Notes under the pieces: model-generated
Seen by the model: the letters and a program-made list of their open reading frames with translations, nothing else
The model's database searches: none
Told to the model about the DNA's origin: nothing
Assembly: GCF_000482245.1 (NCBI RefSeq)
Contig: NZ_AWNH01000080.1
Span: 1-64,000 of the forward strand
Source of the DNA: Leptolyngbya sp. Heron Island J
GTDB taxonomy: Bacteria > Cyanobacteriota > Cyanobacteriia > Phormidesmidales > Phormidesmidaceae
DNA length: 64,000 nucleotides
Direction of reading: 5' to 3'
Program-made: the position numbers and the translations under genes
In this document: piece by piece, positions 29,852 through 63,881 of the stretch
How the letters are laid out: each line of letters opens with the position of its first letter
Numbering within the stretch: the stretch's first letter is position 1

Positions 29852-31151
29852 TACGGGGCTATTTCGTTGGCCAGCTTTTTGTATAGCCTTCTGATAAATC
29901 TTGAAGCTGTGGCCATTCTTCTTTTAAAGTCTATTTCTCCAGGGCGTGCGAATTGGTAATGAAGCCTTAGTGCTACTACTTCCTTCGGGCTATCGGTAAT
30001 TCGTGCGATCGCATTGATTAGCTCTCCGTTTAGCCAGTGGGGTGTGTTCGCGGTGCCCAGGGTGTTAATAGCTTGATCAATATCATCGGTGGCGTTTTTT
30101 GCTCGTTTTGATCCGCTTCTGATGATCACGATGGTGGAGACGTACCCCCATAGACTGGCTCTTGTATGTCCTGGGCCGCCTTTGACCCAGCCTTTCTTTT
30201 TACCGGACTCTTTGAATACTAAGCCCATGCCTAGGCTGAGTTTAAATGCGCTTTCGCTGCGGTTTCTGCGGGATGGCTGTCCTTTTTTTCCGGAAACGTA
30301 TTCGATGATTTCTTTGTGATTTTTATCTAGGAATGATTCGAATGGATAGATGGCTGATAGTAAAGCGGCCCTGGTTTTTGCTGGTATTGCGAACTCGTCA
30401 AAAATTTTGTTGTAGGTGCTTAACTCGTTACGGTAGATAAGTGTGTCTAACTGTTGCTCGATTCTGTATTCCTCTTCGTAGCAGTTGCATAGTTGCTTGG
30501 CTAGGAACCTGGTGTGTGGTGATATTCCTCTACCTAATGTATTTTTGATCTTCTCTTCTCGCTGGGCGGCCCATGTTCCGGTGACCTGCTCCCCTGATAT
30601 TGCGCGTATTGTAGCGGGGGCCTTGGGGGCTAGCCATTCTCGCTTGCTTCCTTCTACCGTTTTTACTAGCTCTGGGCACTCGTAGGCTAGCCGCTGGCAT
30701 AGGCGGTTGTGGATGGGACTACGATTTTGGACGGTATTTTTAATGCTAGATAGGACTGTCTGAGCTCGATTTTGTCTAGGCTGACAAATGCGGTTGGGTC
30801 GTTGAAATTTTCTAGGGCATAGCAGGCGATTGCGGCTGCATCGGGACGATCTTGTTTATTGGCAACACCTTTGGCGATTCTATAGGCGGTTACTCGTCTC
30901 GGAGCGACTAGGCGAACCTCCTTGTTATTCTTTTTGAGCTGGTCAATCCAGATATATCCATATGAACCGGTAGGCTCTAGCACATAGGCATCGGCATTGA
31001 GTTCTAAAAGGTAATCGATAGCATCGCTACTGATTTTTACTTTTTTGGGCTTGTAGCTACGGGCAAAGCTTTTGAAATTGCTCGGTAATTCGTTGACAAC
31101 ACAAACTTGCAGACTGTCTTTACCGCAGTCGCATCCGACTATTTTGGTCAT
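29851..31151 (-). pseudogene. IS110-family recombinase, split by a frameshift
   Basis: The N-terminal part (31151 to about 30742) has the DEDD RuvC-like domain with Asp8 in VGCDCGKDS, Glu59 in VLEPTGSYG, and Asp101 and Asp104 in KQDRPDAAAIACY. Reading continues out of frame to a stop at 30687. From a run of five A residues on the coding strand (30737-30741), the shifted frame stays open for about 295 codons to the TAA at 29851. It contains RNRSESAFKLSLGMGL and GGPGHTRASLWGYVSTI, resembling the C-terminal Transposase_20 domain with its serine. One extra A in the run would restore a protein of about 430 residues (LALKNTVQNRSPIHNRL). It is therefore a recent pseudogene or, less likely, uses slippage. 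Confidence 0.82.
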
Positions 31152-32346: not shown

Positions 32347-34012
32347 AGCCGGGTATCGTAGCCCTGATCAATTCAAACAATGGGTACGATGCCACTCACT
32401 ATACGAGAACGCAGCCAAAAAGTCGCCAATTGCATCAAAACGAATGTTCGCCAAACGCTCAAGACCATCGCAGAAGCGACGGGCCTGAGCCCAAGCAGTG
32501 TCTATCGGCATCGTCAGGCAATCACCCGGCGCAATCAGTACCCAGAATCGAGTTTTTGGGAAACCGAGGTGGGGTATCAGTGGCTGGTGCGGCTGGTGTT
32601 CGGCCTCATCTACTACTTCGGCATCAAGCAAGGGGTCGGCGCTGAGAGTCTCTCCGAGTTCATCCGAGCCATTCACCTGGACACCCATGTGGCTAGCTCG
32701 GCCAGTGCCCTCCGCCAACTCAAGCACCGTGTGAATCAAACCCTACTCGATTAGGCCACTGCCCAAGCGGAGCACTGTCAACCGTCAGCGGGCCAAGGTA
32801 TTTGTGTCGGAGCCGATGAAACCTTCTTTGGCTTACCGGTGTTGGTGCTGCTGGAGCTTGCCAGTGGATTTATTTTTATCGAAACCGAATGTGAGAATCG
32901 CACCTATGAGACCTGGATGAGACAGGTGCAACAGTGGTGGGATAACAGCCAATGGCACTGTCATTACCTGGTCAGTGACGGGGCTCGAGCTCTGGTGAAG
33001 TTAGCCGTATCGGGTATCGGGTGTGTGAGTGTCGCCGACTTGTTCCATGCGTTGCGTGCGTTGGGATGTCCGATTGGTCGTGCGCTGAGCAGTCAGTATG
33101 CGACGCTGCAAAAACAACACAACACACTTCAGAAAGAACTGAGCAAACGCAGTGATGTGAGTCCTCCTCCTCAATCATTGCAGTCGCTGATTGAGAGCAA
33201 CGCCGTTGCTCAACAACGCCTACAACAAGACCAACAAACCTACCACGAGATGCTTGAGCAAATTAGCCAAATCATCCATCCCTTCACCCTGGATAACCAA
33301 CAATGGCAAACAGGAAACGCATTGTTGACTCACCTGGCTCCCCCGTTGCAGAACCTGTGGGATCTTGCCCAATCCTATGGTGGGCAGAAGGCGCAAAAGG
33401 CCATTGACACCTTTGAAGAACACATCACCTCCTGGGCTCAAGGGATTGATGCTTGGCGACAATGGGTGACCTTAACCCTGCAAACTCAAACGCCAGACCC
33501 GGCTATCCGTGACTGGGTGCTCATGGCCCTATTGCCATGGGTCTATTGGACACAGCAAGCCGATAAAACCCGACAACCCGCTCTCAAACATCGCTATCAG
33601 CAAGCGGCTAGCAGCACTTTTGACAGGCTCTTAGAGCAATCGATAACCTTGCAACTGGACGCCAACGAACTGGAGTGTTGGGTGCTCTGGTGTCGAGACT
33701 TCTGTGCCAAATATCAGCGCACCTCCTCAGCGGTGGAGGGACGTAATGGCTATCTATCCAAGCTCCACCATGCCAGTCGGGGATTTTCTGAGCAATCTCT
33801 CAAGGGGCTCACTATTATTCATAATTTTGATCTTAAACGACCGGATGGGACCACCGCCGCTCAGCGACTGTTTGGTCACCCTTTCCCGGACGTATTTGAG
33901 TGGATTCTCGAACATATCGGTGATTTACCGATGCCCCGGAGGTCATCTAAAACACAGCAGCCGAATCCCTCATACGCAAATACTTTTGCGGCTTAAGTTG
34001 ATACCCTCGGCT
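32347..34012 (+). mobile_element. DUF6399-type transposable element, inactivated
   Basis: The interrupted transposase-like gene is flanked by imperfect inverted sequences: AGCCGGGTATC at 32347-32357 and, reversed, AGCCGAGGGTATC at 34000-34012. These differ by a two-base gap and may be terminal repeats. I did not find a clear target duplication. Confidence 0.55.
32380..33996 (+). pseudogene. DUF6399-type transposase-like gene with in-frame TAG
   Basis: The frame is open from ATG 32380 for 124 codons, meets TAG at 32752-32754, then stays open in the same frame to 33996, for about 538 codons in all. The first part has a helix-turn-helix (LKTIAEATGLSPSSVYRHRQ). The second part has GADETFFGLPVLVLLELASG and HYLVSDGARALVK, which look like strands of an RNase H-like core with acidic residues. 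Its end matches DUF6399: SSAVEGRNGYLSKLHHASRG and LHNFD-like IIHNFDLKRPDGTTAAQRLFG. A single base change (from TTG or CAG) could have made the stop. The protein is otherwise undamaged. Confidence 0.75.
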
Positions 34013-50968: not shown

Positions 50969-51279
50969 AACAGCGAACCGACGCAACATGACCAGGCTAG
51001 ACAAAAGTTATGAGGATTGTATGGAGATCTGCGATATAGACATATCACTCGCTCAACTGAGGTGTGATATAAAAAAAATCTGGCCGAAGGTGCCGCCATA
51101 GAGATTGAGCTGGAGGAATTTGACACTAGCCAATCGATTATCAGTACCATGCCTGACGACGACTTGAATAACTCAAAGAGATTTATTAACGAGTTGACAC
51201 AGAATCTACTTTTCTGGAGCAAATGCAAATTCTACATCTTCATACAGGGATGTAATATCAAATCTTACATTCAGGCTCA

Positions 51280-52686
51280 CTAGCGTACCTTTACCTGACG
51301 GTCAGCTTCTAGCTCTTCGCTAGGGTGTAGCACCACCTGTTCACCATCGCTTAGTCCCTCTGTTACCTCAGCTGCCATCGTACTGCGATGGTCAATACTA
51401 ATCTCACGGGGCTGTGCTCGATTGGCTTCTACGACAAACACACACCAGCTCTCACCACAGCGATAAAGGGCACTGACCGGTACCTGTAGAACATTCTCAT
51501 CAGCCCAAATGACAATCTGGGCTTCAATGCGATACTGATCGCCTAAAGCACTGGTCGCAGGCTCTGCTAGGGTAGCAATCACATTCACTCGCTGTTCGTC
51601 TACGCCAAGGGCAGAAACCTCGGTAAACGCTGCCGGTTCGATGTAGCTCACTGTCGCCATTAACGGCTCTGCCCCCCCCCATTGGTCAACAATAATCGAG
51701 TCACCAGGTCTAATCTTGACAGCATCTGTAGAGAGGACATCAATTACCAGTTCTAATTCTCCTGGATTACCTAATTCAATCAACGGGTCGCCTGCCTGGA
51801 CAAACCGAGCACTCTTATCGGGAATCCGCAGTACGGTCCCATTAATCGGAGCTGAGATAGCGGTGCGACGGGCCTCATCCACCAGATTAGCTAGCTCGGC
51901 TTCTACACCGGCAATTTGGGCTCGGTAGGCGTCTTCTAAATAGTCGGGGTCGCGCTGTTCCTGACGTAACAGGGCTAATGCTTCCTGGGCGGCTGTGACA
52001 TTAGCGATCGCACTACCCAACCGTTTGTCATCCGCTGCCAACTCTTGAATCAGACGATTTTCTTCTAGTTCAGCCGCCTCTCTTGACTGGCGAGAAATAG
52101 CACCCTGGGCTTCGAGTTCCTGCGCCCGGTTGCGATCGCGACGCGCCTGAGCTAGCGCCACCCGAGTCTCCTCCACTTCAGCGGCTCTCGCCTGCTGGTC
52201 TTCCTCAGCGACCTGCAATCGAGCTGCTGCCTGAGCTAACGCTTCCGTTTTAGGACGCTGAGTATCTACCCCCACCAGCTCCGCCTGTAGCTCCTGCAAT
52301 CGTGCTTGAGCTGTCCGTACCCGAGAATCCAGGGGCAGTGGATCAATCTGCGCGACCATCCCATTAGCCTCCACCATATCCCCCGCCTCCAGATCAATCC
52401 GCTGCAGCCGACCATCCACCGGAGCTGAGACTACATATCGATCCTCTACCCGAGTTTCTCCCTCAGCATCAATAGTTACCTGGAGCGGTGCCGTCGTCAC
52501 TGTCCCGATATCCACCGGAATTGGCGCAGGCCGAAAAGCCAGACCGACCAAAACTGCAAGACTTGTCCCCGCCAGACCATAAGGTAGCCAGCGAGGCACA
52601 CGCACACGCCGTTGAGTCACGGCCCCTAATGTCTCCCGAGGCCGCCGAAAAAAGTCTCTTACCGTCTGTTTTTGAATCTGAGTCAT
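51280..52686 (-). CDS. HlyD/RND-type periplasmic adaptor of an ABC exporter
   Basis: From ATG 52686 the product has 468 residues. One membrane helix (LPYGLAGTSLAVLVGLAF) is followed by a lipoyl half (VVSAPVDGRLQRIDLEAGDM), a long coiled hairpin (about 110-250, rich in Ala/Glu/Arg/Gln) and the second lipoyl half (AISAPINGTVLRIPDKSARF). Beta-barrel and membrane-proximal domains follow. It bridges an inner-membrane permease and an outer-membrane TolC-like channel. It is the third gene of the leftward operon with permease and ATPase. Confidence 0.88.
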   Translation of the reverse strand: MTQIQKQTVRDFFRRPRETLGAVTQRRVRVPRWLPYGLAGTSLAVLVGLAFRPAPIPVDIGTVTTAPLQVTIDAEGETRVEDRYVVSAPVDGRLQRIDLEAGDMVEANGMVAQIDPLPLDSRVRTAQARLQELQAELVGVDTQRPKTEALAQAAARLQVAEEDQQARAAEVEETRVALAQARRDRNRAQELEAQGAISRQSREAAELEENRLIQELAADDKRLGSAIANVTAAQEALALLRQEQRDPDYLEDAYRAQIAGVEAELANLVDEARRTAISAPINGTVLRIPDKSARFVQAGDPLIELGNPGELELVIDVLSTDAVKIRPGDSIIVDQWGGAEPLMATVSYIEPAAFTEVSALGVDEQRVNVIATLAEPATSALGDQYRIEAQIVIWADENVLQVPVSALYRCGESWCVFVVEANRAQPREISIDHRSTMAAEVTEGLSDGEQVVLHPSEELEADRQVKVR

Positions 52687-52771
52687 GCCATAGCCTCCCA
52701 CTTCCTCTGTCCCTGGTCCCCTGATCCGCTGCTTCCTCGTTCTTCTCTCTTTCTCTTTTTCTTTTCTTCCC
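52687..52771 (-). promoter_or_regulatory. purine-rich inter-gene leader before the adaptor gene
   Basis: Read leftward, the 85-base gap between permease and adaptor genes is almost only A and G (GAGGGAAGAAAAGAAAAAGA is typical). It may contain several ribosome binding sites or affect coupling. A similar C/T-rich stretch, on the opposite side relative to the gene, precedes the TonB-like gene near 4361-4395. Confidence 0.45.
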
Positions 52772-55147
52772 TCACTCTCGCGTCTTCAAAACAGCAATTA
52801 AATCTAACCGACCTAGCTGTCGCCGAATCAACAGGCCTGAGGCCAGTGCCGCCGCCATGATGACCACAAAAGCAAAAGCATAGGTTGTCGGAGTAATCAC
52901 TAAAGGAAAACGAAATAATTCCCAGTCATACATCTCCGTCATCAGTGCTGCCAAGCCAAAGCCTAGCGAAAACCCGACCGGAATCGCCAGGGTTAACAGT
53001 ACAGCCTGTTCTCCCAGAAGAATAAATGCGATTTCACCTTTGGTAAAGCCAATGATACGTAGGGTAGCGAGTTCTCGCTCTCGCTCTGATAGAGCAATCC
53101 GGGCCGCGTTATACACCACCCCAAAGGCAATCACTGAGGCAAACCCGACTAAGACCACCGTAAACCCAGCCATACTCTGGGTTAAAATTTTGTTGAACTG
53201 GTCAATGGTAGTTTGACGCATGGCAACGCTGGCCACGGCAGGGGTTTCTTTTAACTGGGCATAGAGCTGTTGTTGTGCTTGCTCGTCCACCTGCAGATAG
53301 GCACCGGAGAGGGTAAACCCTTCTCGCATGAGCCGATTTAGGGCGTGGAGGTCCATATAAGCAGAAATACCCACCAACTCATCAAAGATGCCCGTGACGT
53401 GAACAGTACGTGTGGGTCGTCCTCCTTCTAGCACCTCTACAGTCAGCTGATCGCCTAGATGAGCCTGGAGGGTCTCCGCTAGTTTAGTGGATAATACAAT
53501 GCCCTCGGGTGGCAATGTAACGGGACGCTGCTCACGATCCAGCAGGCGACGCAGTTCGCCACCCGGTTCCACTCCATTGATACCGCTGAGTTTTTGGTAA
53601 TGGCCAAAACGCAGTCGGGCCGGTACTGTTCGAAATGGCTCAGCGTGTAAAACTCCAGGTAGATGATATAGCTCAAACTGAGCCCGGCTTGATAGGGGAT
53701 TGTTAAACACCAGGGTAATGTCTTCTCGTTGAATGGTGCGAAACTGAATGTCAACCAGGGCATCCATTGCATCGGTAAAGAAACGCCCCAGAATCAGGAT
53801 TGCGATCGCAACACCAATTCCCACCACTGACAACAATCCTTGCACCGGCCGGCGCTCCAGATTGCGCAGAATAATCCGACTAGGGGCAGAAAACCATCGC
53901 TGCAGCCCCAATTTTTCCACCACCGTGGGTCGATAGGTGGAGGGCGGTTCCGGTCGCATAGCTTCAGCCGGGGGCAGGATCACCGCTCGTCGAACCGACA
54001 ACACCGCTCCCAGAATAGCGGCCCCAAAACTTACCAACAACGCCGTCAGCAACACCACTGGTGGCACCTCATACTGCAGCACTGGGAAGTGATAAAAATC
54101 TGCATATATACGAGTCATGCCTCGTCCCATCCACCAGCCCAGACCGCTGCCCAATGCCATACCTAGCAATACAATGCCCAGTACTAACTTTAAGTAGTGT
54201 AGCCCCACTGTCAGATTGTCGTACCCAAAGGCTTTCATCACAGCAATCTGATCTCGCTGGGTACTGATCAAACGACTTAACAACAGATTGAGTAAAAAAG
54301 CAGCAATTCCAAGGAAAATAGAGGGCACAAAGATGGCATGGGCCGACAGCTGACGAATCTCATCAGAAATAAACGTGTGGGAAATTTGATCCTCTCGACC
54401 AAAAGCCCCTAATCCACCATAGGTTTCTAGCAACTGATCAAGCTGAAAGATCACCGCCGCCTCGCTGGCCCCTGGCATCAACCGGAGACTCACGTCATTA
54501 AATGCACCTTCCATATCAAACGCCGTAGCCAGGGCTTGTTGTGGCATCCAAAGAATGCCAAAGCGTTTGTTGTCGGGGACAATTTCGGTACCACGAATCT
54601 CATAGATATACTCGGGCGATAGGGCAAGGCCCACAATTCGCAGGGTTTGCCAACGGCCATTGAGAATTGCCCCCACCGTATCATTCAGCTCTAAGTGATT
54701 CGCCTTGGCAAAGACCTCGCTCGCTAGCACCTCATCTCCTTGTTCCGGATAGCGCCCCTGACGAATAAATAGGTCGTTGAGCATAGGGTGTTGCCGTTCC
54801 GGAATAGAAATCAGCCGTCCAGTAGCCGGTTCCTCTAATCCTTCCACTGACAGGGTGACATCCTTCACAACTCGAGTCTGAACGGCACCTACACCAGGAA
54901 TCTGCTCAAATCGAGAACCCAAGCTTTTTGGTGCCCGTTTCAGCTGTACAAACACATCTGCAAACCGGTACTGGTCATAATAGGTAGTTTGGGTCAGCTG
55001 CAGCGACCCGTGGGTACTCATCATGGTGACCAGGGTAGCGATGCCACAGGCAACAATCAGGACAATTGCCAGCACCTGCCCCCGCATGCGGAGTAGATCG
55101 CGTAAGAGTTTACGGTCGAGGGCTTTCAAGCTCATACCCTTTACCAC
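52772..55147 (-). CDS. FtsX-family ABC exporter permease (MacB/LolC-like, two FtsX domains)
   Basis: A 791-residue membrane protein. It has a first anchor ([20 protein letters not shown]), a periplasmic MacB-type domain (about 45-250), and an FtsX block of three helices ([20 protein letters not shown] onwards). A second anchor near 430 ([20 protein letters not shown]), a second periplasmic domain and a second FtsX block ([20 protein letters not shown] onwards) follow. It works with the ATPase that overlaps it by seven bases and with the adaptor. The exported substrate is unknown. Confidence 0.88.
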
Positions 55148-57780: not shown

Positions 57781-58203
57781 CTAGCGGGGCTGACGCATGA
57801 CCCCTAACTGCTGAAACTGTTGCGACTGCTGTTCGATCTGAATCGATAACGCATTACAAACCAGATCGCAAAGTTCAAATAGAAATGGGTTAGCAATTTG
57901 ATAATAGACGCATACACCCTCCTGACGACGGCTGACCACACCAGCCTGGGTCAGCATCTTTAAGTGTTTTGAAACATTAGCCTGCCCCAACCCAGTAATC
58001 TCAATGATCTCTGTGACATTTTTTGCCCCTGATTTTAAGGCACAGACAATCTGTAGGCGACTCACCTCAGATAAAACCTTAAAAAACTCAGCCATCAATC
58101 CCAGGGCCGCTGGTGAAAGAGACGTGATACCGCTGTCAGACGACTCGACGGTAGCCGTTGAAGTTCTGAACGTTTTCTTCTTAGATTTCTTAGTAGCAGG
58201 CAT
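57781..58203 (-). CDS. ArsR-family repressor with candidate thiol-sensing cysteines
   Basis: A 140-residue repressor. The winged helix is RLQIVCALKSGAKNVTEIIE, then GLGQANVSKHLKMLTQAGVV and EGVCVYYQIA. The basic first 20 residues are an extension. Cys54 in the helix before the DNA-binding helix and Cys112/Cys116 in the last helix lie roughly where BigR/SqrR proteins keep their persulfide-sensing pair; no typical metal-binding CXCXXC is present. It is divergent from the YeeE/YedE genes and next to SQR, so a sulfide or persulfide signal is likely. A start at the ATG given is supported by the basic family-like extension only. Confidence 0.82.
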   Translation of the reverse strand: MPATKKSKKKTFRTSTATVESSDSGITSLSPAALGLMAEFFKVLSEVSRLQIVCALKSGAKNVTEIIEITGLGQANVSKHLKMLTQAGVVSRRQEGVCVYYQIANPFLFELCDLVCNALSIQIEQQSQQFQQLGVMRQPR

Positions 58204-58354
58204 AGGTGCAATTCGCTTGGCAGGAACTGTGAGGGATGAGAACAGGTGATGGACCGTTAACTATATTACCATAAAGTATTATAAAGCTTTTGCAGCACTT
58301 TCGCCCTGATCGTCTTGGAATCAGGCCTTTTCAGCATTTAGGTAGCCAATATAC

Positions 58355-58442
58355 CAATGGTGACAATGGTGAAATTTCAATGGTGAATGTTTGCACAACT
58401 CGGGAAATGTCATGGCATTATATTACTAATTAATTATATAAT
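58355..58442. promoter_or_regulatory. candidate operator region between the ArsR and YeeE/YedE genes
   Basis: CAATGGTGA occurs three times, at 58355-58363, 58364-58372 (directly adjoining) and 58378-58386. An AT-rich dyad follows: ATTATAT (58417-58423) and ATATAAT (58436-58442) flank the palindrome TAATTAATTA (58427-58436). The dyad ends 22 bases before the start of the first transporter gene, a fitting place for an ArsR operator. Confidence 0.6.
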
Positions 58443-58464
58443 TTTCTGAGATATTGCTGCTACC

Positions 58465-58881
58465 ATGATGGAATCAACCTGGGTAACGGGGTTTTTGGGA
58501 GGTCTGTTAATTGGTCTGAGTGCAACGTTGCTGCTGGCATTTAACGGTCGCATAGCAGGCATTAGCGGCATTGTTAATGGTGCGATCCAGGGTGATGAGA
58601 TTTGGCGATGGTTGTTTATCGCTGGCATGCTGCTGGGTGGGCTCGTCTATGAGCATGGTCTTGCAGCCGAGGTGACGCCTCGACCGATACTAGCGCCTGG
58701 CTCGATGATATTGGGTGGGTTTTTGGTGGGATTTGGCACTCGTTTAGGCAATGGCTGCACCAGTGGTCATGGGGTGTGTGGGTTGGGTCGATTGTCATTG
58801 CGATCGCTAGTGGCAGTCCTTACCTTTCTGACTACAGCGATGGTGACTGTCTGGATTACCCGTCATGGCATTGCTGGATAA
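58465..58881 (+). CDS. YeeE/YedE-type sulfur transport half protein 1
   Basis: A 138-residue membrane protein with four helices. It carries LLLAFNGRIAGISGIVNGAI near the start and the conserved GGFLVGFGTRLGNGCTSGHG then VCGLGRLSLRSL, with cysteines in NGCTSGH and GVCG. YeeE/YedE proteins move small sulfur compounds such as thiosulfate or act in sulfur trafficking. Two adjacent ATG codons occur; the first is given. The partner half starts five bases after the stop. Confidence 0.88.
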   Translation: MMESTWVTGFLGGLLIGLSATLLLAFNGRIAGISGIVNGAIQGDEIWRWLFIAGMLLGGLVYEHGLAAEVTPRPILAPGSMILGGFLVGFGTRLGNGCTSGHGVCGLGRLSLRSLVAVLTFLTTAMVTVWITRHGIAG

Positions 58882-58886
58882 AAGAC

Positions 58887-59339
58887 ATGAACAGACTCTC
58901 ACTACAACAAACATTAGCTTTGAGACAGAATTTGATTGCGATCTTAGCGGGTTGGCTATTTGGCCTGGGGTTAGGGTTATCGCAAATGATTGACCGAGAG
59001 CGGGTGTTAGGATTTTTAGACATCGCCGGTAATTGGGACCCGACACTTTTATTTGTCCTGGGTGGAGCCGTGAGCGTCACCGTAATTACATTTCGATTTG
59101 TTTTGCGATGGCCCCACCCACTTGTCGCCACTCAATTTAGATTGCCAACTCGCAGGGACATTGACCTATCTTTAGTGCTAGGGACCGCCATCTTTGGCAT
59201 CGGTTGGGGCATTGCAGGCTACTGTCCAGGACCTGCCATTGTTGCACTGACATTAAATGCATGGAACCCTGTTATCTTCCTGGCTGCTTTTATTGCTGGC
59301 TCACTCACCTTTCGAGTATTCAACCGTCAACGCCTGTAG
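58887..59339 (+). CDS. YeeE/YedE-type (DUF6691-like) half protein 2
   Basis: From ATG 58887 the product has 150 residues and four membrane helices. LAGWLFGLGLGLSQMIDRER and FGIGWGIAGYCPGPAIVAL are family hallmarks, the latter with a conserved Cys. An in-frame start at 58776 would overlap the first half by 105 bases, so 58887 is preferred. The two halves probably form one transporter. The 3' end overlaps the convergent SQR gene by 20 bases. Confidence 0.88.
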   Translation: MNRLSLQQTLALRQNLIAILAGWLFGLGLGLSQMIDRERVLGFLDIAGNWDPTLLFVLGGAVSVTVITFRFVLRWPHPLVATQFRLPTRRDIDLSLVLGTAIFGIGWGIAGYCPGPAIVALTLNAWNPVIFLAAFIAGSLTFRVFNRQRL

Positions 59340-60630
59340 CCCTAGATCCCACCACAGACGACGTGTCTGCTTTTAACATTTTGAGACCAAATAGGGCACG
59401 CAGACCCAGTTTTTCAAACCATGGCATCCCCAGACCCGATCGCATTTTGAGCATAAAATAGTGTTCGAATGCGGTCTTAACCCAGACAACCCATGGCCCT
59501 CGCACTGCATAGGAACGCTTACGTTTGCCGGTTTCAGGGTCGGGGAGAACTGGGGCGGCAATGTAGGCAATACCCGTCTGACCAAATTCTGCAAAACAAA
59601 GGGCATCCAGCGTTGGCACCTGCAACGGGGCACGCATTGCTCCTAGTTCAACAGCAATGTTGTGGGCTACTGCAGCAGCCATGGTTTCTGCCATTTGACC
59701 ACTTTTGGGTGATGTGATGGGAATAGGAGTTTGATCAGGCTGTTCGAGTTGAGTGCTGACACCTGCTGCATAAATTGTTGAAAACTGAGGGTGGCGTTGG
59801 TTTGGCAATACAGGAATAAATCCCTGGTCATCCGCTAAACCGGGCACTGCTCGCACAAAGTCAACACCGCGAAAGGTGGGTAGGATCATGGAATACGCGA
59901 AGGGCAAGGTGCGGCCATCGGCCAGAGTAATCGTTTGTTGGTTTACAGCGGTGATTTCAGCATTCTCAATCACCTTAATCTCTCGTTCCTGCATCAGAGC
60001 AGTGGTTAGTTTTTGAGAATGCTGAATATTAGAAACACCTAAATGTCCTACATAGGGTTCCGGCGTGATGTAGGTAATGGGTACCTGCTGACGTAAACCA
60101 AGGCGGCGGAGTTCGTGCTCGGCCATGAGAACAAACTCATAGGCAGGGCCAAAGCACCCCACACCCGGAGCTGCACCAACAACTAGAGGTCCCGGATTTT
60201 TCAGAAAGTCGAGCCAGGCCTGTCGGGCCGCCAGGGCATGGTGAGGAGTACAAACAGACTGGGTGTAGCCGTTGGGGCCTGAGCCTGAAATTTGGTCAAA
60301 GGCAAGAGCGGCACCGGTTGCGATCGCAAGGTAGTCATATTCGATAACCAGACTCTCCTCAATCACAAGCTGTTTCCTATCAGGGGTCAAGTTAGTCACC
60401 CGACCATGCACCCAATTGAGCTGATGTCGCTGGGCCAGTCGCGACAGATCTAACTGAATATGGTCTAACGATTTCAGGTTTAGCGCCACCTGAATAAGCC
60501 CTGGAATAAACGTGAACTTAGACTCATTAGAAATCAGCGTTACCGTGTGACGCTTAGGTAACCAGTGGCGTAGCTCATAGGCTGTTGGCAACCCCGCTAA
60601 ACCAGCCCCAATGACAACAACATTTGCCAT
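59320..60630 (-). CDS. sqr: sulfide:quinone oxidoreductase
   Basis: A 436-residue flavoprotein. The FAD motif is VVVIGAGLAGLPTAYEL. Cysteines at 127 (YTQSVCTPHH), 159 (GVGCFGPAYEF) and 345 (DALCFAEFG) match the three-cysteine set of the classical SQR group, two of which form the active disulfide. ITSPKSGQMAETMAAAVAHN contains the quinone-side Lys. The C-terminal amphipathic part (FEHYFMLKMRSGLGMPWFEK) would attach it to the membrane. It oxidises sulfide and passes electrons to the quinone pool. It is convergent with the YeeE/YedE pair and divergent from DUF302. Confidence 0.88.
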   Translation of the reverse strand: MANVVVIGAGLAGLPTAYELRHWLPKRHTVTLISNESKFTFIPGLIQVALNLKSLDHIQLDLSRLAQRHQLNWVHGRVTNLTPDRKQLVIEESLVIEYDYLAIATGAALAFDQISGSGPNGYTQSVCTPHHALAARQAWLDFLKNPGPLVVGAAPGVGCFGPAYEFVLMAEHELRRLGLRQQVPITYITPEPYVGHLGVSNIQHSQKLTTALMQEREIKVIENAEITAVNQQTITLADGRTLPFAYSMILPTFRGVDFVRAVPGLADDQGFIPVLPNQRHPQFSTIYAAGVSTQLEQPDQTPIPITSPKSGQMAETMAAAVAHNIAVELGAMRAPLQVPTLDALCFAEFGQTGIAYIAAPVLPDPETGKRKRSYAVRGPWVVWVKTAFEHYFMLKMRSGLGMPWFEKLGLRALFGLKMLKADTSSVVGSRATGVDG

Positions 60631-61194
60631 AATTAATGTCTCCTTTTACTAACCTGGCTATCTGAGCCGTCAGCAATCAATTAATCTTTGTTGACGTTGA
60701 GCAGTTGAGTTTTTCTGTAAAAACCTCTGGTTTTCGCTTAAACATAGCTTACCGCATATAGCCGATGAAGAATTAGCTATAACAATTTAGGTCAGCTTAA
60801 AACTTGACCAGTGCAGATATCCTCTTCATGTCTCTGTCTCACCCTTCCATCTTTGGATCTAAGAGGGCTTAGGAATGGGGAGCCAACAGTTTTGACTTTG
60901 CTGATGTTCGGATAGCCCTTACCCCAGTCCTCACCCCCTGAGGGGCTGCTCACAGAGTGGGCAAAAATCTAGACATTAATAAATTCTGATTTCTTAGCAC
61001 ATCATTTTTATTATCTTTTAGCTATTCAGATATTAAAAACCATCGCATTCTGTCAATGACCCTGAGAGATTCTAATCAAAGGATAAAAAAAGTGGTTGAT
61101 TAAATCACTATTTAGTTATATGATGATTTTAGAGATTAAGGCATCACGCCAGTCCGATACATTTCTCAGCAATTTAGACAAACTCACATTCGCT
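60631..61194. other. 564-base divergent gap upstream of sqr and the DUF302 gene
   Basis: A CCCCTGAGGGG palindrome lies near 60935-60945. AT-rich sequence at 60990-61095 could hold promoters for DUF302. An in-frame extension of DUF302 to 61096 does not look coding. No gene or clear operator is visible. Confidence 0.45.
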
Positions 61195-61602
61195 ATGTAT
61201 CACTTTAGTAAGACAATTCAGGCTTCCTTTGATGAAGCCATAGCTCAGGTGACTGAAGCGCTTCAAGCCGAAGGACTGGGAATCTTGACCGAAATCGATG
61301 TGCAGACCGCTTTTAAGAAAAAGCTAGACACCGATTTCCGCAACTATAAGATTCTCGGAGCCTGTCATCCGCTAATTGCCTATCGCATGTTGCAAACTGA
61401 CGACAAAGCTGGAGCGCTTTATCCCTGTAACGTTGTCGTTCAAGAGCACGACGATGGACGAGTAGAAGTCTCAGCAGTCGATCCATTAATTATGTTTTTG
61501 ATGATTCACAGTCCTCAAGCTAAAGAGATCGCCTTAGAAGCCAGTCAGAAGATGCAGGCTGTAATGGATCGTTTGCCAGCTGCAACGCCGGTTGTAGCTT
61601 AA
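61195..61602 (+). CDS. DUF302 family protein
   Basis: From ATG 61195 the product has 135 residues. The start YHFSKTIQASFDEAIAQVTE and LGACHPLIAYRMLQTDDKAG then LYPCNVVVQEHDDG match DUF302. Two cysteines lie in GACHP and LYPCNVVV. DUF302 proteins often occur beside SQR, rhodanese-like and YeeE/YedE genes. The biochemical role is unknown, but a sulfane-sulfur or redox role is suspected from neighbours. The longer start at 61096 adds 33 unrelated residues. Confidence 0.87.
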   Translation: MYHFSKTIQASFDEAIAQVTEALQAEGLGILTEIDVQTAFKKKLDTDFRNYKILGACHPLIAYRMLQTDDKAGALYPCNVVVQEHDDGRVEVSAVDPLIMFLMIHSPQAKEIALEASQKMQAVMDRLPAATPVVA

Positions 61603-61656
61603 GCCTGACAGAACAGATGAGCCGTAGTTAATACTAGATTTTGGAGGTTACGTTCC

Positions 61657-61875
61657 ATGTTTAATAATGTTGGTACTGTTGATCGCCTGCTGCGATTACT
61701 TGTAGCAATTGGGTCCCTTTATTTTGGGTTGACGGTTTATGCCGGTTCAACCTTAGGAATGGTGTTAGATATTGTTGGCAGTGTGGCTTTACTCAGTGGA
61801 GTATTTGGTTCCTGCGCTCTCTATGGTCTACTGGGTATCAACACCCGGAAAACCAACCAGGATTCAACCACATAA
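61657..61875 (+). CDS. DUF2892 (YgaP-type) membrane protein
   Basis: A 72-residue protein with two membrane helices. The start FNNVGTVDRLLRLLVAIGSL and the Cys-containing second helix LLSGVFGSCALYGLLGINT are typical of DUF2892, the membrane part of YgaP-type rhodaneses. GGAGG lies ten bases upstream. It follows DUF302 by 54 bases and is probably co-transcribed. The family is frequent in sulfur-oxidation gene sets. Confidence 0.88.
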   Translation: MFNNVGTVDRLLRLLVAIGSLYFGLTVYAGSTLGMVLDIVGSVALLSGVFGSCALYGLLGINTRKTNQDSTT

Positions 61876-61961
61876 TTCCTACTTAACGTTCTCTTATCTC
61901 TTCTAAAGCCAATACTCGGCTGGAGCATTTGCTCCAGCACGAGTTTTTTTTAGTCGTCTTT

Positions 61962-62420
61962 TTAGATAACATCCATGGATGATGGACTGTACAGTATGTC
62001 GTTGCTGCGTCGACAATTACTTAATTCCTTAACCGGTACTGTGGTAGCGGCAACCGTAGGTTCAGCATTTTCGGTAATGGGACAGACACAGTCGTCTCGA
62101 TGCAACCACTGCTGACCAACCTGATAGAGGGCCATAAATACAGGCTTCAGCTCTTTACCTTTTGGAGTGACAGAATATTCCACACGAGGCGGGATTTCTG
62201 GGTAAGCCCGTCGAGCGATAATCCCATGCTCCTCTAAGCTTCGCAGTTTGGCCGTTAGGGTTTTGCTACTGATTCCAGGTAAAGCAGTTAACAGCTCATG
62301 GGTGCGACAATCTTGATCCCAAAGCTGGCGTAAGATCAATAATGACCATTTGCCACCTAACATATCAAGGATGAACTGAATCGGACATTGGGACTGAAAA
62401 CAACTATGGGTGTCGAGCAT
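61962..62420 (-). CDS. HxlR-family transcriptional regulator
   Basis: A 152-residue winged-helix protein. The start has Cys7 and Cys12 (CFQSQCPIQFILDMLGGKWS), then LPGISSKTLTAKLRSLEEHG and PPRVEYSVTPKGKEL, the HxlR signature. A conserved Cys near the start is used for redox or electrophile sensing in related YodB/HypR proteins; two are present here. The C-terminal 40 residues (with Cys at DDCVCPIT) extend past the usual fold. It is divergent from the alternative oxidase gene and probably controls it. Confidence 0.85.
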   Translation of the reverse strand: MLDTHSCFQSQCPIQFILDMLGGKWSLLILRQLWDQDCRTHELLTALPGISSKTLTAKLRSLEEHGIIARRAYPEIPPRVEYSVTPKGKELKPVFMALYQVGQQWLHRDDCVCPITENAEPTVAATTVPVKELSNCRRSNDILYSPSSMDVI

Positions 62421-62439
62421 ATTGTCCGAAAAAATAGGC

Positions 62440-62460
62440 CTACCTGTATCTACTTACCTC
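62440..62460. promoter_or_regulatory. possible HxlR operator
   Basis: TACCTGTATCTACTTACCT, about 20 bases upstream of the HxlR start, repeats TACCT directly at 14-base spacing. It lies in the divergent HxlR/alternative oxidase gap, where an autoregulatory site would be expected. Evidence is only the repeat. Confidence 0.35.
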
Positions 62461-62683
62461 TTATTTTGTCTGATCAGTTTGCGACAAAAATTAAGACATT
62501 CTTAAATGGATTGAAGTTTAATTTTTCTTTAAGGTGAAAGCCCAAATCACCTAGTAATCATTTTTTTACTGAAAGAAACTCTAATTTTTCCTATTACTCC
62601 CCTAAGAGACCCTAAAGAAACGGTCTTGCCATTTTTGAGAGACAAGTGAGGATATAAGGAGCACCAAGAAAGAGAGCTTTAGC

Positions 62684-63355
62684 ATGATTAGACTATTGGT
62701 TGGCATACTGGTCTTTGTCATTAATGTTGTCTATCGAAACCGCCCTTATCCACGATTTTATGTTCTTGAAACAGTTGCTCGTGTTCCTTACTTCTCCTAT
62801 TTATCGGTCTTACACCTCTACGAAACGCTTGGATGGTGGCGTAAAATAGATTGGCTGAAAGTTCATTTTGCTGAATCTTGGAATGAGTTGCATCACCTGT
62901 TAATCATGGAAGAGCTAGGAGGTGATGGACGCTGGATCGATCGATTTTTGGCTCGTCATACAGCCTTGCTTTACTACTGGATTGTGATCGGGCTCTATTT
63001 AGTAGCACCTAATGCTGCTTATAACTTTATGGAGCTAGTTGAACAGCATGCCTATGCAAGCTATGACAAGTTTTTGATCCAGGAAGAAACTCATCTCAAA
63101 ACCCTACCTGCCCCTCAAGTTGCCATTGATTATTACCGAGATGGCGATCTCTACATGTTTGATGAGTTTCAAACAGCTCAGCCACCGGCCCAACGTCGAC
63201 CCGAGATCAACAATCTCTATGATGTTTTTGTTGCCATTCGTGATGACGAGATGGAACATGTCAAAACAATGGTCGCCTGTCAACAGCCTGATGCTCACCT
63301 GCAATTTAGCAGTCCTCACACCCCTCAACTACAGACTGAAGTTGCTGGCAACTAA
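62684..63355 (+). CDS. aox: alternative oxidase (PTOX-like ubiquinol/plastoquinol oxidase)
   Basis: A 223-residue di-iron oxidase. Iron ligands are in place: Glu29 (VLETVARVPY), Glu68 and His71 (NELHHLL), Glu120 (VEQHAYASYDKFL), Glu189 and His192 (RDDEMEHVKTM). SVLHLYETLGWW and the membrane-facing hydrophobic region YYWIVIGLYLVAPNAAYNFM complete the family pattern. It oxidises plastoquinol with oxygen and pumps no protons. Being cyanide- and sulfide-tolerant in known members, it would suit a sulfide-exposed cell, consistent with its place near sqr. Confidence 0.93.
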   Translation: MIRLLVGILVFVINVVYRNRPYPRFYVLETVARVPYFSYLSVLHLYETLGWWRKIDWLKVHFAESWNELHHLLIMEELGGDGRWIDRFLARHTALLYYWIVIGLYLVAPNAAYNFMELVEQHAYASYDKFLIQEETHLKTLPAPQVAIDYYRDGDLYMFDEFQTAQPPAQRRPEINNLYDVFVAIRDDEMEHVKTMVACQQPDAHLQFSSPHTPQLQTEVAGN

Positions 63356-63461
63356 GCCATAACTAAAAAGATTCAGCCTGCTCCACAATGACAAAAAAAC
63401 ACTGGCTCTATTGCATTTATCAGCAGGGCCAGTGTATACCTCTATTCAAAGGAGCCCCCCT

Positions 63462-63881
63462 ATGGCTAAATCTCTATTTCAAACCACCAGACATATTCTA
63501 GTGATTACTCCAGTTGAAGATATGGAAGTGATTCTACGGTTGAGTCTTGAATTAATCGCCAACGCCCACATTTCAACTGTCTCTACAATTACCCAAGCAA
63601 TTGGTATTGCTACAGTTTACCAGCCCGATCTGTTGTTATTAGATACTGATGTCATTCAAGAGTACCAGTTGTTTGTTTTGAGATCAGTTCCCGTGCTACG
63701 GCAAACCCCGATGATTTTTCTTGTTCCCCGCGTGCGAACCAGTGATCGACAACAAAGTGAACGATTAGGAATCAACAGCATTTTGGCAAAACCATTTGAC
63801 CCATCCGAACTCATAAAACAAGTAAATATCAGCTTAAGGTGTGCGTCTATTTCACCATTGATGGCTACAAGCAATGCTTAA
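63462..63881 (+). CDS. response-regulator receiver-domain protein
   Basis: From ATG 63462 the product has 139 residues: a single receiver domain with no output domain. The phospho-acceptor Asp is in DLLLLDTDVI and the conserved Lys in ILAKPFDPSEL. The acid pair normally near residue 12 is replaced by Glu-Asp in VITPVEDMEV, so phosphorylation is possible but not certain. No kinase gene is in the window. It is 106 bases after the alternative oxidase gene, so may be co-transcribed. Confidence 0.82.
   Translation: MAKSLFQTTRHILVITPVEDMEVILRLSLELIANAHISTVSTITQAIGIATVYQPDLLLLDTDVIQEYQLFVLRSVPVLRQTPMIFLVPRVRTSDRQQSERLGINSILAKPFDPSELIKQVNISLRCASISPLMATSNA

Follow-up and report, generated by a model that had tools for sequence, protein, structure and literature searches.

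Type I sulfide:quinone oxidoreductase (SQR) reduces the quinone pool, including plastoquinone; enzymes of the alternative oxidase (AOX) family pass electrons from plastoquinol to oxygen; and SqrR and BigR define persulfide-responsive regulons of the ArsR family. Type I sqr is flanked by petC2 in metagenome-assembled genomes (MAGs) of the Thermostichales, and the same source notes low-oxygen induction of petC2 where it adjoins sqr (PMC11304991). Cyanobacterial sqr also occurs near psbA variants and together with arsR and DUF302, the latter after Nagy et al. 2014 (PMC5061849). Here we examined positions 57781 to 63881 of a 64-kb window (the whole stretch of DNA analyzed) from contig C80 (102 kb) of Leptolyngbya sp. 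Heron Island J (genome G000; 119 contigs, 8.06 Mb), where an SQR gene lies close to an AOX gene. We conclude that this proximity is peculiar to one genome among those surveyed, where petC2 was probably lost and an AOX gene arrived with its HxlR-family regulator, and that it does not reflect a module.

The interval resembles the Thermostichales loci in pairing type I SQR with an adjacent gene for a Rieske isoform of cytochrome b6f, but here petC2 is a stub and the HxlR-AOX pair stands in its place. Compared with the plasmid-borne sqr operon of Synechocystis PCC 6803 (Nagy et al. 2014, as described in PMC5061849), the locus shares SQR, ArsR, and DUF302; it differs in that its ArsR belongs to another subfamily with a different cysteine pattern, its DUF302 gene is divergent, the sulfur-transport pair PmpAB is present, and no chromate or arsenite transporter gene was identified in the interval. 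As in the SqrR and BigR regulons, an ArsR repressor with a cysteine aligned to one of SqrR is linked to PmpAB and SQR; the window protein nevertheless scores far below the cut-off of the BigR model (43.7 versus 155 bits), and its second cysteine is apparently shifted. The oxidase has the PF01786 domain and all six di-iron ligands of cyanobacterial AOX and plastoquinol terminal oxidase (PTOX) but differs from these in having a divergent HxlR partner and an operator-like dyad.

Results

The sequence-only reading of this DNA had proposed that SQR and AOX form a sulfide detoxification chain under thiol-sensitive repressors. We surveyed 390 cyanobacterial genomes, setting aside a divergent AOX group from one family (f2). 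SQR was detected in 107 genomes, AOX in 71, and both in 26, a co-occurrence that was not significant (Fisher's p = 0.077). The window genome was the only one of these 26 in which the two genes lay less than 10 kb apart, in a survey containing many fragmented drafts whose SQR-AOX pairs, if split over contigs, could escape detection. Of 65 genomes from the same family, 10 had AOX, 27 had SQR, and 5 had both (p = 0.73), and again SQR adjoined AOX only in the window genome. Two genomes of the same genus, Leptolyngbya sp. PCC 7375 (G162) and Adonisia turfae CCMR0081 (G349), carry SQR and AOX more than 1 Mb apart or on different contigs, and two others (G210 and G370) have AOX and lack SQR. Viewed from the SQR side, AOX was a neighbor in 1 of 71 loci, that of the window. 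The proposed module is not supported: the genes are neighbors in 1 of the 26 genomes with both, they do not significantly co-occur, and SQR has other recurrent partners. The survey thus returned the outcome that the sequence-only reading had itself named as refuting its proposal, namely AOX adjoining SQR in this genome alone. Within the interval, SQR and AOX lie on opposite strands, 2.05 kb apart, with three genes between them and two separate regulators nearby, so they do not constitute one operon; a sulfide-specific SQR-AOX operon was rejected on the basis of strand and lack of conservation.

In two genomes of different families (G275 and G222), sister AOX genes share a neighboring open reading frame of about 763 amino acids (78% identical). 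Located 23 to 35 kb from SQR, these genes possibly represent a laterally moved unit. A common island containing both SQR and AOX was not supported, since the SQR proteins of the two genomes are only 55% identical.

Across the 71 SQR loci, the recurrent neighbors were ArsR (40 loci), DUF302 (24, divergent as in the window), and DUF2892 (14). Clustering of neighboring proteins added psbA (15 loci) and a Rieske protein (28), the latter almost always on the strand opposite SQR. An NCBIfam equivalog model (294 bits; cut-off, 250) identifies this Rieske protein as PetC, which is the cytochrome b6f iron-sulfur subunit. Counted at E ≤ 1e-68, the SQR-linked isoform (petC2) occurred in 76 genomes, 55 of them with SQR (Fisher's p = 2e-20), and it lay less than 10 kb from SQR in 37 of those 55. 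Within the genus, all four SQR-bearing genomes searched had petC2, and neither of the two without SQR had it. Linkage of SQR and petC2 has already been published in part and is a known kind of sulfide-oxidation cluster. The window locus keeps ArsR, DUF302, and DUF2892 near SQR, as in sqr-petC2 loci, and of petC2 itself it has no intact neighboring copy, only a 5′ stub.

The stub, which the sequence-only reading missed, emerged from blastp comparison of the window HxlR with SQR loci. Matches in eight such loci had prompted the idea of a regulator shared by the SQR and AOX modules. This was ruled out: all but the window's own were short matches that paired the HxlR C-terminal tail (the last ~38 residues) with antisense petC2, and they led to the discovery of the relic. 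The tail is encoded antisense to the 5′ end of petC2; on the plus strand of the window, this DNA reads MDDGLYSMSLLRRQLLNSLTGTVVAATVGSAFSVMGQTQSSRCNHC followed by a stop, and full-length petC2 genes that hold the same position in other SQR loci read MDDALSFEVPSLSRRQLLNFLTGATVAATAGSALYP and continue. The relic has 67% identity over 33 amino acids by tblastn and retains the syntenic place and strand. Its protein-level alignment score was 82, and the highest elsewhere in the window, in all six frames, was 40; at the DNA level, matches of 60 to 70 bases rose above shuffled sequence in four of the eight comparisons with relatives, and in two of these they did so clearly.

The join could be placed closely. 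Residues 1 to 115 of HxlR are homologous to other AOX-linked HxlR proteins, and residues ~116 to 152 are antisense to the relic, which the 3′ end of the gene overlaps. Homology to petC2 ends at 62085 (protein) or 62067 (DNA) and that of HxlR to its orthologues at about residue 115 (62076), a near coincidence that locates the join within about 10 to 20 bases. By these alignments, the petC2/HxlR junction is a recombination scar. The petC matches of the host genome included no 3′ remainder of the truncated gene, and simple insertion into petC2 was rejected on that ground. The only full-length SQR-type petC2 of the genome is on contig C14 (52960 to 53490), is 96% identical to that of G162, and lies 0.5 kb from a second SQR gene (75% identical to the window SQR; locus, 51211 to 53490). 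Of the two SQR loci in G162 and G349, one is the orthologue of this C14 locus. We conclude that the C80 locus lost its petC2, through deletion or replacement, and that the C14 locus stayed intact. The C80 SQR falls in a clade with copies from genera g1 and g4, within which its placement is poorly resolved. A P-type ATPase gene downstream on C80 is also found at the second SQR locus in both G162 and G349, evidence that the contig is genuine.

The other side of the join is itself a recurrent unit. Among about 80 AOX loci read, HxlR was divergent from AOX in ten genomes from at least five families (G000, G103, G183, G024, G168, G256, G270, G045, G235, and G222). Their intergenic regions (62421 to 62683 in the window) share a TTAC-N5-GTAA dyad, mostly after a T run. 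Within one mismatch, the dyad was present in 9 of 10 HxlR-linked AOX promoters versus 8 of 60 without HxlR (p = 3e-6, uncorrected for relatedness). Given the recurrent divergent pairing and the dyad, the window HxlR probably controls AOX through this candidate operator. In the literature searched, we found no paper on a cyanobacterial AOX or PTOX with a divergent HxlR and an operator-like dyad. The AOX promoter of one further genome (G265) has the exact dyad, but its 1.5-kb flank contains no HxlR, unlike that of the sister AOX in G270.

The window AOX is 73 to 87% identical to the other cyanobacterial copies compared. In the AOX tree, it falls in a group with the AOX of G082 (genus g2) and of G103 (genus g4, with HxlR; support 96/88), apart from a clade made up of the four remaining AOX of its own genus (100/97). 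Forcing monophyly of the genus cost 19.5 log units and was rejected by the approximately unbiased (AU) test (p-AU = 0.031), a test of only moderate strength, applied to a grouping chosen after the tree was seen. This placement suggests that the HxlR-AOX pair was gained laterally or replaced.

Both enzymes appear catalytically complete. SQR residues Cys127, Cys159, and Cys345 align with the three cysteines of A. ferrooxidans SQR (3sz0), by which criterion the protein is a genuine type I SQR with all three redox-active cysteines. In AOX, E29, E68, H71, and E120 align with mitochondrial AOX structures, and E189 and H192 complete an E-x-x-H pair; all six ligands (four Glu, two His) are invariant across 37 cyanobacterial sequences. 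From the EQHAY...DKF and IRDDE motifs, we take the oxidase to be PTOX-like. The view that SQR and AOX both act on the quinone pool agrees with established biochemistry.

Conserved cysteines were likewise found in both ArsR and HxlR, in keeping with the idea of thiol-sensitive repressors. Most close relatives share ArsR Cys54, Cys112, and Cys116; the first of these aligns with a cysteine of R. capsulatus SqrR, the register of Cys112 and Cys116 against the second SqrR cysteine is ambiguous, and SqrR-type structures (6o8k and 13ct) are among the best matches. The arsR gene is divergent from the PmpA/PmpB pair, and its position and cysteines are consistent with control of PmpAB and SQR. The window HxlR resembles HxlR, YybR, and YodB structures, and five aligned orthologues share an N-terminal cysteine (CP) and a C-terminal CxC motif. 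The ArsR proteins encoded near cyanobacterial SQR fall into two subfamilies: the window type (Cys54/112/116) and another without Cys54, which has three other conserved cysteines in addition to Cys112.

Genes were called from family-profile matches above curated cut-offs, and every gene named in the sequence-only reading was recovered at about the expected position (Table 1). The PmpB and SQR genes are tail-to-tail with a 20-base overlap. The last gene of the interval, which had not been named before, encodes a response-regulator receiver protein; it did not recur in the other AOX loci read. Elsewhere in the window, transposase-like open reading frames were recognized by eye from translations at 30687 to 31151 and 32839 to 33996 (an IS110-like fragment and another transposase-like frame).

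Table 1. Features of the studied interval of contig C80, in window coordinates
Feature	Position	Strand	Evidence
ArsR/SmtB-family repressor	57781-58203	-	PF01022 E=1.1e-12; HTH_metalloreg above cut-off
PmpA-like half of split YeeE/YedE (sulfur-transport) pair	58465-58881	+	PF04143 Sulf_transp above cut-off
PmpB-like half (DUF6691)	58887-59339	+	PF20398 E=2.9e-43
Type I SQR	59320-60630	-	phmmer E=1e-86 to 3sz0, 4e-82 to 3hyv
DUF302 protein, divergent from SQR	61195-61602	+	PF03625
DUF2892/YgaP-like transmembrane protein	61657-61875	+	PF11127
HxlR-family regulator	61962-62420	-	PF01638 E=5.9e-30
petC2 relic (cytochrome b6f Rieske subunit), N-terminal ~37 codons	61975-62085	+	tblastn and synteny
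Candidate HxlR operator dyad TTACTGAAAGAAA, one mismatch to TTAC-N5-GTAA	62566-62578	none	
AOX, looks PTOX type	62684-63355	+	PF01786, 113 bits
Orphan response-regulator receiver protein, likely start 63462	63411-63881	+	PF00072

Discussion

We consider it likely, with a probability of roughly 0.78, that a rearrangement in this lineage brought together two separate gene modules. The left part of the interval (57781 to 61875) would be a cyanobacterial sulfide module in which SQR oxidizes sulfide and reduces plastoquinone. In relatives, such a module runs on into petC2 and often lies near psbA, which points to cytochrome b6f and photosystem I as its usual electron exit. In the window genome, petC2 is cut after ~37 codons, and the HxlR-AOX pair, probably foreign and not seen beside SQR elsewhere, abuts the break. 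The PTOX-like oxidase would oxidize plastoquinol with O2, probably under control of HxlR through TTAC-N5-GTAA and not of ArsR. Electron flow from SQR to AOX through the shared plastoquinone pool is possible in this organism and would be incidental or recent. The enzymes, catalytic residues, and regulator cysteines of the proposed SQR-AOX chain hold, but the conserved module does not, and the pairing stems from the rearrangement that truncated petC2.

Several observations weigh against this reading. The next-closest SQR-AOX spacings were 23.5 kb (G275) and 34.6 kb (G222), and random placement predicts 0.04 pairs closer than 3.5 kb over the 26 genomes, a value computed post hoc; the adjacency would be mildly surprising if purely accidental. 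The AU test is of only moderate strength, as described above, and the arrangement comes from a single contig of a single genome, where an assembly join could in principle account for it. That two unlinked pieces were falsely joined at the petC2 5′ end would fit the uniqueness of the pair, but we hold this to be very improbable: the join lies well inside a 102-kb contig, the HxlR reading frame crosses it, two same-genus genomes carry the downstream P-type ATPase gene at their second SQR locus, and divergence between the stub and the intact C14 petC2 means that the stub is not a misassembled copy of that gene.

The same proximity could mean that AOX took over the electron-exit role of petC2, with the pair kept because SQR-made plastoquinol is burned directly with O2 by a sulfide-insensitive oxidase; the chain of the sequence-only reading would then be a recent innovation of this locus. 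HxlR-AOX does occupy the petC2 slot, the catalytic residues of both enzymes are intact, and genes this near each other would be met by chance in only ~4% of such surveys, although that figure was obtained after the case had been seen. Opposite strands, separate regulators, the lack of a second genome with the pair in either survey, the nonsignificant co-occurrence, and the SQR-petC2 locus still intact in the same genome make such a replacement unlikely. We also think it improbable that the SQR module was rewired in the full sense, such that an HxlR-controlled AOX replaced, at this locus, the b6f Rieske isoform that ordinarily helps to draw off the plastoquinol produced by SQR, turning an energy-conserving sulfide route into a non-conserving, sulfide-insensitive detoxification valve.

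A possible, if doubtful, alternative is that the locus belongs to a low-oxygen island of micro-oxic isoforms (petC2, a psbA variant, a second AcsF, and AOX) whose signal is low O2 or redox and not sulfide. An isoform gene for AcsF (Mg-protoporphyrin monomethyl ester oxidative cyclase) follows AOX just beyond the window (C80, 64018 to 65085), the AOX-HxlR locus of G103 also has AcsF ~3 kb away, another AcsF lies ~22 kb away from SQR-petC2 on C14, and the low-oxygen induction of petC2 beside sqr (PMC11304991) points the same way. However, AOX-HxlR-AcsF linkage was seen in two genomes only, and the C80 AcsF is closer to copies from its own genus (90%) than to that of G103 (82%). The host genome has three AcsF genes in all.

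If two modules were indeed joined here, the locus offers one natural case in which the conserved SQR neighbor, petC2, was lost and an oxidase was placed in its slot. With the recurrent HxlR-AOX pair and its candidate operator, the regulation of cyanobacterial AOX/PTOX would become open to direct testing. Taken together, these results show that cyanobacterial SQR has its conserved electron-transport neighbor in PetC2, a b6f Rieske isoform, and not in AOX.

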